Source: Thermoproteota archaeon
GTDB taxonomy: Archaea; Thermoproteota; Thermoprotei; Thermoproteales; Thermocladiaceae
Length of the DNA stretch: 32,505 bases
Reading direction: 5' to 3'
Assembly: GCA_013153275.1 (NCBI GenBank)
Contig: JAADER010000030.1
Coordinates: 1 to 32,505, forward strand
The notes below the pieces were generated by a model. That model saw only the letters and a list, made by a program, of their open reading frames with translations, ran no database searches and was not told the DNA's origin. Shown one piece after another: positions 7,861-20,520 of this stretch; position 1 is the stretch's first letter; each line of letters begins with the position of its first letter. Made by a program: the position numbers and the translations under genes.

Positions 7861-8187
7861 ATGAATGATTTGGACTCGCTTATTAGGGAGCTGCATTCTA
7901 ATGTTATGCGGGATCTCATGGGGGACGTGTGTTCGGAGTTGAATGGGGATGAGGTTGTGTCCTGTGTCAGGAACGTCTTGTCTAAGTATGGGTTCAATAT
8001 CAATTCTTATGTTTTAATGTCTATAAATGGTGAGGTAGTTGATGATCCTGATTTTGCTAGATATCTGAGAGTCGAGGCTTCTCATCCGTCTACTGGGGAT
8101 CTCTCTCACGTGTTCACGTTTGGCGTGCTTAAGAGGAGTGGAAAGTTTAATGTTATATATCTCCAGTCTGCAATAGTTAAGAAGTGA
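7861..8187 (+). CDS. Hypothetical protein, 108 residues
   Basis: An ATG-initiated frame with normal codon use and mixed alpha/beta character. Residues 1-45 look helical (DLDSLIRELHSNVMRDLMGDV) and the second half has alternating strands (SHVFTFGVLKR, FNVIYLQSAIV). Two cysteines (residues 21 and 32) flank a short acidic stretch. There is no signal peptide or membrane segment. I do not recognise the family. Its TGA stop is built into box C of the sRNA gene at 8184-8233, so mRNA and guide RNA share sequence at the 3' end. The upstream 240 bases carry a direct repeat and a possible TATA box. Confidence 0.6.
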   Translation: MNDLDSLIRELHSNVMRDLMGDVCSELNGDEVVSCVRNVLSKYGFNINSYVLMSINGEVVDDPDFARYLRVEASHPSTGDLSHVFTFGVLKRSGKFNVIYLQSAIVKK

Positions 8188-8233
8188 TGAGAGCGTCCCG
8201 TTACAGAGTAATGAAGAGGGCGACCGGTACTGA
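8184..8233 (+). ncRNA. Box C/D guide sRNA (candidate)
   Basis: Box C GTGATGA (8184-8190) and box D CTGA (8230-8233) bracket 50 bases. The internal boxes are degenerate: D' CAGA (8204-8207) and C' TAATGA (8209-8214). The guide before D is AGAGGGCGACCGGTA; by the N+5 rule it would direct 2'-O-methylation of the G in a target containing TACCG. The guide before D' ends CGTCCCGTTA. Box C contains the TGA stop of the preceding gene, and box D ends one base before the stop of the convergent radical SAM gene. Targets were not checked. Confidence 0.68.
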
Positions 8234-9769: not shown

Positions 9770-9817
9770 GTGATGAGTTCACGAGACACTGAGTATGATG
9801 ACTGCACGTCAGGCTGA
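9770..9817 (+). ncRNA. Box C/D guide sRNA (complete, consensus boxes)
   Basis: All four boxes are perfect: C GTGATGA (9770-9776), D' CTGA (9789-9792), C' TGATGA (9796-9801) and D CTGA (9814-9817). Guides are 12 bases each: GTTCACGAGACA before D' and CTGCACGTCAGG before D, with a 3-base D'-C' spacer, the compact archaeal layout. By the N+5 rule the methylated bases would be the U of TGTCU in target TGTCTCGTGAAC and the A of CCTGA in target CCTGACGTGCAG. It exactly fills the 48 bases between the stop of eL38 and the start of the radical SAM gene, on the opposite strand to both. I could not match the guides to rRNA or tRNA without a genome. Confidence 0.92.
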
Positions 9818-18059: not shown

Positions 18060-18110
18060 GTGATGAGCAATCCCGTCGCTGAGAAGGTGAGGACATTTTC
18101 GGGGAACTGA
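18060..18110 (+). ncRNA. Box C/D guide sRNA
   Basis: Box C GTGATGA (18060-18066), D' CTGA (18079-18082), C' AGGTGA (18085-18090, degenerate) and D CTGA (18107-18110). Guides are GCAATCCCGTCG before D' and GGACATTTTCGGGGAA before D. By the N+5 rule the methylated bases are the G of CGACG in CGACGGGATTGC and the C of TTCCC in TTCCCCGAAAATG. It sits in the 150 bases between the divergent uS8 and radical SAM genes, on the strand of the latter, and could be part of its upstream transcript. Targets were not verified. Confidence 0.8.
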
Positions 18111-18156: not shown

Positions 18157-19854
18157 GTGAAGATACTGCTAGTTGATGGATACAGTGATGAGCCAGCAGG
18201 TCTAGGAGTACCACCATACATAGACGTCTACCCGAGATATATTGCCGGAGCGATATGGAGCGTAGATAGCTCGATAGAGGTCAGATACGTCACTATAGAC
18301 GACTTGAGAAGAGACCTCACAATACTGAGAGACGAGTGGAAGATCATGATAGTGATAGCTGGAGTAACTACTCCAGGAAAATACTTGAAGTACTCTCCTA
18401 TAACCTTCGAGGAGATAGTTAGAATAAGTAACCTAGCTAGATCAAGACTTAGAATACTCTGCGGCCCTGTTGCACGGTTCGGCTACATATCTGAGGGAGG
18501 CGACATCGCGGTCGATCCTTCAATTTTCAGGAGATATTATGACCTCGTGATATCTGGCGATCCTGATCTGGTAATATATGATCTTCTCCGGTCCTCTCTA
18601 GATATGGGTAAGATCGATCCTTCGGAGATACATGAGGATGATAGCTTAATAAACATATTTGCTGTTAAGGGCTCGAGAATAGTTGTTCAGCATCCATGTT
18701 ACGGTAAGAATCTTATAGCCGAGATAGAGACCTACAGATCATGTCCGAGATATGTTACAGGAGGCTGCAGCTTCTGCATCACTGTCAGAAGAGGAGTACC
18801 ATTAATGAGAGACGTTAGAGGAGTTGTCAGAGAAGTGGAGGCTCTGTGTAGAGCTGGTGTGAAAAATTTCAGAATAGGTAGACAGGCAGATATATTAACA
18901 TACTTCTCTAAAGATGTTGGAAAACTTGAGTTCCCGAGACCGAGACCTGACATCATTGAGAGACTATTTCACGGTATCAGAAGCGTAGCCAGAGGACTAG
19001 AGGTCCTCCACATAGACAATGTTAATCCGGGAACGATATATCACTGGCCTATAGAGAGCATAGAGTGTCTGAAGATAATAATGATGTATCACACTCCCGG
19101 AGATGTAGCGGCGATGGGTGTAGAGACTGCAGATCCAAGAGTGGTCAAGATAAATAATCTGAAGGTGAGTCCAGAAGAGGCGTATGAGGCTGTGAAGATA
19201 GTGAGCAAGCTAGGAGATGTACGTGGATGGAATGGTATGCCTCACCTGCTTCCGGGAATAAACTTTGTTCTAGGACTTCCAGGAGAGACTAAGGAGACCT
19301 ATGATCTTAATAGAGACTTTCTTAAAAAACTTCTTGAAAACAATATAAAAGTTCGTAGAGTGAACATAAGACTTGCAGCAGTATTTCCCGGGACACCATT
19401 GTGGGCTCATAGAGACACTGTATACAGAAACTTGAGAAGACATAGAAAGTATATAGAGTCCTTCAGATACTGGGTCCGCCACGTGTTCGATATCGAGAAC
19501 CTTCAGAGAATTCTTCCAAGAGGATCAATTCTGAAGAACCTTTTCACTGAGATTCATGATAGAGAAGGAACATACTGTAGACAGGTAGGGTCTTACCCGC
19601 TCATAGTATACGTTCCAGAGAAGCTCGAGCTTGAACGTTGGATAGATATAATAGTCGTAGATCATCTGCCTAGATCAGTCATAGGCGTACCATATCCCGT
19701 AGATATAAATAGGGCGCCCGTCAAACTTCTTAAGAAGATCCCCGGAATGAGCGAGGATAAACTCAGAACAGTGATAGCAAGGAGACCTATAGAGAATGCG
19801 GAGGATCTTAAGAAGCTACTCGGTGATTCGTGTAGATATTTCAAGCTTAGGTGA
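18157..19854 (+). CDS. Radical SAM protein with C-terminal helix-hairpin-helix (COG1031-like)
   Basis: A 565-residue protein matching the archaeal COG1031 group, radical SAM enzymes with a C-terminal HhH domain. N-terminal residues 1-140 resemble a B12-binding-like fold. The iron-sulfur motif is C196-PRYVTGG-C204-SF-C207 (spacing 7 and 2). The barrel includes [10 protein letters not shown] and the [15 protein letters not shown] strand. Residues from about 517 ([18 protein letters not shown]) form a ComEA-type HhH that usually binds nucleic acid, so the substrate could be an RNA. The reaction is unknown. It starts at GTG with AAAGG nine bases upstream. Its TGA stop lies in box C of the next sRNA. 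Confidence 0.88.
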
Positions 19855-19900
19855 TGAGTACACGCCCTTGGCGATAGATGAGCGGAGTGGCCAAGTCTGA
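19851..19900 (+). ncRNA. Box C/D guide sRNA (candidate)
   Basis: Box C GTGATGA (19851-19857) contains the TGA stop of the radical SAM gene; C' is AGATGA (19876-19881) and D is CTGA (19897-19900). D' is poor (GCGA, 19871-19874). The guide before D is GCGGAGTGGCCAAGT, predicting methylation of the G in target ACTTGGCCACTCC. It is convergent with the minus-strand sRNA at 19957-19908, with seven bases between the two D boxes. The weak D' box lowers confidence, but a single-guide sRNA needs only C and D. Confidence 0.6.
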
Positions 19901-19907
19901 CCATATG

Positions 19908-19957
19908 TCAGAACCCCCAACCATCCTCATCCCTTCAGAAATGATGTCCCTCATCAT
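19908..19957 (-). ncRNA. Box C/D guide sRNA
   Basis: On the minus strand: box C ATGATGA (19957-19951), D' CTGA (19938-19935), C' GGATGA (19932-19927, one mismatch) and D CTGA (19911-19908). Guides are GGGACATCATTT before D' and GGATGGTTGGGGGTT before D. Predicted methylation sites are the G of AAATG in AAATGATGTCCC and the third C of AACCC in AACCCCCAACC. The TGA stop of the protein gene upstream on the same strand is part of box C, the same arrangement as on the plus strand a few bases away. Confidence 0.78.
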
Positions 19958-20520
19958 CTCTCTAGCTCCTGTGCAATGTTCAAAAGTTTGAGCAAGTAGT
20001 AGAGAAGCTCACTTCTGCTTAATCTTCTCCTAATCTTGAGAGTATGTTGTTGACCGGTGCCCCACTTTCTCCATACTGGCTCCACAGCATTAAGCTCCTC
20101 GAGAGCTCTTATCACCCTTATTAGCTCGACTGTCGCTCTCCCTCGAAGCTTCTCTCTAGACCTTATATGATCAAACCACTGTCCCTCACTTATCGAGGAT
20201 AGAATTCTCATGAACTTTCTACAACGTTCAGCTATCTCGGGTCTCTCACTATATGATGGTCTCACCCTTCTTAGAGATACATCAAACAACGATTGCTCAA
20301 CCTCATATATCTTGTCTATTCCTAAAAAGCTCACAACGTTGTTGATAATATCTAGAGCCTCCTTATCCGGCTCCTCTACAAGATATACGACACAGGCGTC
20401 AGCATCTCGAGATCCCGTCACTATATATCCTACCCTTGTCCTAATTATAAGAATGTTCTCGTATCCTCTCTGTCTTAATTTTCCCGTAACTCTACGAAGT
20501 AGATCTTTATCGGACCTCAT
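19954..20520 (-). CDS. Hypothetical protein, 188 residues
   Basis: A charged soluble protein without membrane segments. Residues 20-90 look like an alternating alpha/beta domain (NILIIRTRVGYIVTGSRDADACVVYLV, then helix and KIYEVEQSLFDVSLRRV). Residues 95-188 are helical and basic and could hold a winged-helix-like or helical bundle domain (VELIRVIRALEELNAVEP). I do not recognise the family. It overlaps the preceding gene by 14 bases and belongs to a minus-strand operon with a 57-residue zinc protein and a 157-residue unknown protein. The operon ends in a C/D sRNA whose box C includes this gene's stop. Confidence 0.65.
   Translation of the reverse strand: MRSDKDLLRRVTGKLRQRGYENILIIRTRVGYIVTGSRDADACVVYLVEEPDKEALDIINNVVSFLGIDKIYEVEQSLFDVSLRRVRPSYSERPEIAERCRKFMRILSSISEGQWFDHIRSREKLRGRATVELIRVIRALEELNAVEPVWRKWGTGQQHTLKIRRRLSRSELLYYLLKLLNIAQELER

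Follow-up and report, generated by a model that had tools for sequence, protein, structure and literature searches.

The junction between a radical SAM gene and a gene for a 188-aa protein raises the question of how two box C/D sRNA genes came to face each other with hardly any spacer between them, and whether the TGA stop codons of the two protein genes account for this arrangement. The junction lies in a stretch of 32,505 nucleotides, which was analysed as a whole (the window) and is contig C69 of the source MAG. This MAG (1.386 Mb, 88.6% complete) was labelled G000, and the related genomes compared with it were labelled G001, G002, G003, G004 and so on.

The junction and its two facing sRNAs

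An earlier sequence-only reading had placed a plus-strand and a minus-strand C/D candidate at this junction, facing each other with seven bases between the D boxes. This was confirmed by direct reading of the sequence and by the matrix scores of the two elements, here called W1 and W2, which are predicted to be box C/D dual-guide sRNA genes lying tail to tail on opposite strands. Both contain an RUGAUGA box C, a CUGA box D and internal C′ and D′ boxes at canonical spacing, the D′ box of W1 (GCGA) being degenerate. The features of the junction, with the boxes read from the sequence and the C′ and D′ boxes also from the matrix scan, are as follows:

18157–19854, plus strand: W1 host gene, radical SAM protein of 565 aa (Pfam Radical_SAM, 2.2e-08); stop TGA at 19852–19854, in box C
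19851–19900, plus strand: putative box C/D sRNA W1, whole; 50 nt, matrix score 30.8; conserved in G000, G001 and G003
19851–19857, plus strand: W1 box C, GTGATGA, with the host-gene stop TGA inside
19858–19870, plus strand: W1 D′ guide, GTACACGCCCTTG; complementary to TAAGGGTGTGTAC in the 23S of relatives
19871–19874, plus strand: W1 box D′, GCGA, degenerate
19876–19881, plus strand: W1 box C′, AGATGA
19882–19896, plus strand: W1 D guide, GCGGAGTGGCCAAGT; weak 23S match
19897–19900, plus strand: W1 box D, CTGA
19901–19907, no strand: D-D spacer, ccatatg, 7 nt; 0 nt in the G001 ortholog
19908–19957, minus strand: putative box C/D sRNA W2, whole; 50 nt, matrix score 36.9; kept in G001, G003 and G004
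19908–19911, minus strand: W2 box D, CTGA
19912–19926, minus strand: W2 D guide; its core, GGTTGGGGGTT, is the same in four species
19927–19932, minus strand: W2 box C′, GGATGA
19935–19938, minus strand: W2 box D′, CTGA
19939–19950, minus strand: W2 D′ guide, GGGACATCATTT; conservation does not extend to G003 or G004
19951–19957, minus strand: W2 box C, ATGATGA, with the host-gene stop TGA inside
19954–20520, minus strand: W2 host gene, ORF for a 188-aa protein; stop TGA at 19956–19954, in box C

The TGA stop of each host gene was thus found within the box C of its own sRNA, as had been noticed before, and the predicted spans of W1 and W2 support the earlier description of the junction as RNA-coding almost throughout, on both strands. 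Rfam models gave C/D matches on the strands and spans of W1 and W2, all of them below the gathering thresholds. Both D boxes and the spacer were also seen to form a short inverted repeat at 19896–19912 (TCTGAC-CATAT-GTCAGA), and a hairpin is conceivable in either transcript.

Orthologs of the W1 host gene were present in 50 of the 61 relatives searched, and a Pfam search with the W2 host protein gave no match. At the G001 locus (L002 1186–1234, G001:C92), the radical SAM host frame was found to be shifted by one base, so that translation continues across all of W1 and stops at the box D TGA, and in G003 the W2 host gene ends in TAA ahead of box C. As judged from these sequences, the overlap between stop codon and box C is labile and not required, the sRNA being kept when the stop moves.

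The rRNA of G000 is missing from the MAG, and guide targets were read on the rRNA of relatives. The pairing of the W1 D′ guide with 23S TAAGGGTGTGTAC comprised 11 Watson-Crick and 2 G-U pairs for the G000 form, and with the guide as found in G001 and G003 it comprised 12 Watson-Crick pairs. It follows the N-plus-five rule with a Watson-Crick pair at N+5, and the G predicted to be methylated aligns near E. coli 23S position 1812. For the W1 D guide, an 8-bp 23S match with one mismatch was found on the downstream side of the D′ target, at a distance of 24 nt, with a predicted site (N+5) aligning near E. coli 23S G1835; this match is weak by itself and alone does not beat shuffled guides. Taken together, the two matches 24 nt apart on 23S fit the double-guide geometry described for archaeal C/D sRNAs (PMC4644070). 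W1 probably acts as a double guide on two closely spaced positions of 23S, which would then be methylated; this reading is part of the explanation preferred below. Comparison of the W2 guides with the rRNA of relatives gave no match above shuffled guides, and a search for tRNA targets of W2 gave none that was convincing.

Gene ends and convergent pairs in the whole genome

A C-D′-C′-D matrix scan (a simple in-house version) of the whole 1.386 Mb genome at a score of at least 25 gave 191 raw hits (160 distinct), compared with 8.7 after Markov shuffling and 3 when the sequence was reversed. The 160 distinct candidates correspond to about 115 per Mb, and 127 of them scored at least 30. For Methanopyrus and Ignicoccus, the archaea with the largest sets in PMC4644070, 127 and 128 C/D sRNAs were reported, fewer than these 160 candidates; our estimate of about 150 true C/D sRNAs in G000, a figure derived from sequence candidates, would exceed both. 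Further high-scoring candidates in the window were found at 8184–8233, 9770–9817 and 18060–18110 (+), with scores of 33.1, 38.7 and 35.4.

Among the 1,429 genes called in G000 (again with a simple in-house version of gene calling), a TGA directly after the stop codon was found in 26 of 462 TGA-ending genes vs. 10 of 523 ending in TAG and 12 of 444 ending in TAA. An in-register C/D sRNA candidate was present at 18 of the 26 TGATGA gene ends. The excess of TGA after TGA stops, two to three times the TAA/TAG rate, is accounted for by these sRNAs. Furthermore, 19 of the 3′-overlapping C/D candidates in G000 have the TGA exactly within box C. About 25% of archaeal C/D genes are reported to overlap a 3′ gene end, and in nearly half of these cases box C contains the stop codon (Tripp et al., 2017, reviewed in PMC7994747). 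A stop codon within box C is therefore already described for archaea and is confirmed genome-wide here, and the new part is the mirrored tail-to-tail layout. No mention of abutting convergent C/D pairs was found in the literature searched; an earlier mention may exist elsewhere.

Ten nearest-neighbour convergent C/D pairs within 120 nt were found in G000. The tight convergent pairs (hereafter twins) numbered seven, with D-D gaps of 0, 0, 0, 0, 2, 2, and 7 nt. Permutations in which the 160 sRNAs were put at random into non-coding slots (3,000 runs) gave a mean of 0.38 convergent pairs with gaps of 0–7 nt and a maximum of 4, compared with the 7 observed. For convergent pairs at up to 120 nt, the 10 observed compare with 4.2 expected, and 21 of the 3,000 permutations reached 10. 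No divergent pairs were observed within this distance (4.3 expected), none being nearer than 493 nt, and tandem pairs begin at 12 nt and cluster as the permutation expects. Among the tight twins, both arms have a stop in box C only in W1-W2, and most of the others lie in own-promoter or same-strand contexts. We rejected the possibility that twins are a by-product of convergent protein genes, as most tight twins were found in other gene contexts.

All four gap-0 twins of G000 share the palindrome CTGATCAG, and outside twins TCAG directly after box D was found in one G000 candidate only. As a general rule, a sequence-specific functional site at CTGATCAG was rejected, as many twins have spacers of 1–9 nt.

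Recurrence of twins and change of partners

The gap-0 form was found in 11 of 81 genomes of the class, with zero matches for the reversed pattern, and a search of 398 phylum genomes gave no match to the gap-0 pattern outside the same order (Thermoproteales). A survey of the 81 class genomes with one arm length fixed, a spacer of 0–30 nt and patterns of matched information content showed 33 convergent places in 22 genomes, and at 23 of the 33 the gap was 0–3 nt. The divergent control, of equal information content, gave 11 places in the same genomes, mostly with gaps above 10 nt, and the tandem control gave 10. Genus g4 among the relatives, which we take to be Vulcanisaeta, is referred to as Vulcanisaeta-type. 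Tight twins with spacers of mostly 0–3 nt were also present in other Thermoproteales, among them complete Vulcanisaeta-type and Pyrobaculum genomes. Several twin carriers are single-contig genomes with 99% completeness, which shows that assembly error is not the cause. Conserved twins were found in three or more species.

Other close arrangements were also seen. Three crowded C/D-like elements are present at G003:C33:1342-1504; two of them form a convergent twin separated by 1 nt, next to which a third element lies in divergent orientation. In G028, G030, G034, G035, and G044, C/D genes were seen head to head at short distance, with AT-rich spacers of about 25 nt. These pairs are apparently conserved in genus g7, and their spacers may be divergent promoters.

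Comparison of the W junction across relatives showed that W1 and W2 are both kept at the orthologous junction of G001, as a twin with a spacer of 0 nt. In G003, W1 was found behind its own host (P0001 ortholog) and W2 behind its own host (P0003-P0002 orthologs), on different contigs and unlinked. In G004, W2 was again found behind P0002, with W1 not alongside. Similar changes were seen for other twins. The pairs A1-A2 and B1-B2 are present in G000-G002, whereas G004 contains A1-B1 with a gap of 0, A2 being located nine kilobases off and facing another sRNA at 36 nt. In the Vulcanisaeta-type genus, the partner of the A2 homolog is a third sRNA. The arms of a twin on G004 contig C76 (1-nt spacer) showed 86–88% identity to two G000 sRNAs that are single and unlinked. 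The first of these is the candidate at 9770–9817 of the window; the second has a D guide that recurs in a G022 twin, where the partner is different again.

Where they could be traced, host genes stay with their sRNA, which indicates that the units were recombined and not duplicated. An origin of twins by inverted duplication was rejected, as the two arms do not share guides and relatives contain them as separate, unpaired genes. Second, unpaired copies of one twin arm, E2, were seen at G001:C93:42427-42473 and G004:C46:1335-1382 (87–89% identical), and these copies suggest sRNA gene duplication.

Origin of the twins and comparison with known systems

The finding of W1 and W2 unlinked in G003, each with its host, points to the twin as a product of rearrangement and packing of two pre-existing units. 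We consider it probable that twins in general consist of independent gene-sRNA units that were joined by rearrangement and whose spacer was then eroded. W1 and W2 would each be expressed in the 3′ end of the mRNA of their own host and trimmed out as an L7Ae/Nop5/fibrillarin RNP directing 2′-O-methylation. Two such gene-plus-sRNA units would have been brought tail to tail, and the spacer would subsequently have been reduced to almost nothing. Most archaeal C/D sRNAs are reported not to require a dedicated promoter, the mature RNA being released from a longer transcript by way of the internal boxes (PMC7994747). If the 3′ end is formed by trimming to the RNP, with no terminator, convergent sRNAs could share a border; head-to-head sRNAs would need promoter space. 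If the 3′ side needs nothing, convergent sRNAs would be packable until their D boxes touch, which fits both the gaps of 0–3 nt and the missing close divergent pairs. Packing would account for the short gaps but not for the convergent excess within 120 nt, which is about twice the expected number; with modest probability, this excess has its cause in function or in recombination.

A functional reason would be given if twins were a selected genetic unit of Thermoproteales, in which head-on transcription or antisense tails fix both terminator-less 3′ ends and couple the amounts of the two sRNAs, the D-D border being a recurrent re-pairing site. Such selection would be in agreement with an excess specific to convergent pairs, the clustering of D-D gaps at 0–3 nt over many genomes, the recurrence of the twin state with different partners and the conservation of twins in three or more species. 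However, homologous sRNAs survive as singles in relatives, so that the twin state is not required, and the gaps of orthologous twins vary (0 and 7 nt for W, 0 and 38 nt for X, 0 and 3 nt for the Vulcanisaeta-type twin). We regard a selected unit as rather unlikely, although worth keeping in mind. It seems distinctly unlikely that D-box borders or CTGATCAG are rearrangement hot spots, with twins as the products of recombination. For at least W (G003 compared with G000 and G001) and A/B (G004 compared with G000), the breakpoint fell in the interval that separates the D boxes, and the palindrome is common to the four gap-0 twins of G000, but the many twins with 1–9 nt spacers do not contain it, and simple inversion between two palindromes would not give the gene order seen at A in G004.

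The sequence-only reading had suggested that C/D sRNAs arise or become fixed at TGA-TGA gene ends, which provide box C; the pair would then result from the chance convergence of two ends of this kind. The first part stood, in that TGATGA ends are enriched in C/D sRNAs (18/26) and both W arms use the stop, and such ends still help to explain where box C came from. For the mirrored layout itself they are largely refuted as the cause, since both stops lie in box C in only one of the seven tight twins, the stop shifts between relatives without loss of the sRNA, and the overlap with box C does not explain why the D boxes abut; a chance meeting of two such ends is quite improbable. If the junction were merely rich in TGATGA and the motifs on one or both strands arose by chance, Rfam matches below the gathering thresholds would be expected. 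This is hardly credible given matrix scores far above the null and the conservation of guide and boxes across two to four species despite shifts of the coding frame.

Whether joined by rearrangement and packing, as preferred here, or otherwise, twins are a concrete and countable arrangement with partners that change between species. They make it possible to test whether sRNA 3′ ends result from RNP trimming alone or from convergent transcription too, and whether sRNA borders serve as rearrangement breakpoints. They thereby bear on how archaeal C/D sRNA genes move, acquire host genes and come by their 3′ ends when no terminator is present; according to a 2021 review, mobile features of these genes remain to be discovered (PMC7994747).

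Compared with the archaeal box C/D dual-guide sRNAs of Sulfolobus, Pyrobaculum, Ignicoccus, and Methanopyrus (PMC4644070; PMC7994747), W1 and W2 showed the same C, D′, C′, D order, a similar length (about 50 nt) and two guides, and there is likewise one guide with N-plus-five complementarity to 23S and a double-guide spacing below 100 nt. They differ in forming an abutting convergent pair. The 3′-overlapping C/D genes (Tripp et al., 2017, in PMC7994747) resemble W1 and W2 in having the TGA of the upstream gene in box C on the same strand, probably within a shared host transcript. The W junction differs from these in that two such units face each other, and in relatives the sRNA persists even where the overlap is lost or shifted. 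Polycistronic or tandem archaeal C/D clusters (PMC7994747) likewise contain adjacent sRNA genes, but these are read as one transcript, whereas the arms of a twin are located on opposite strands with a spacer of 0–7 nt and share no transcript.
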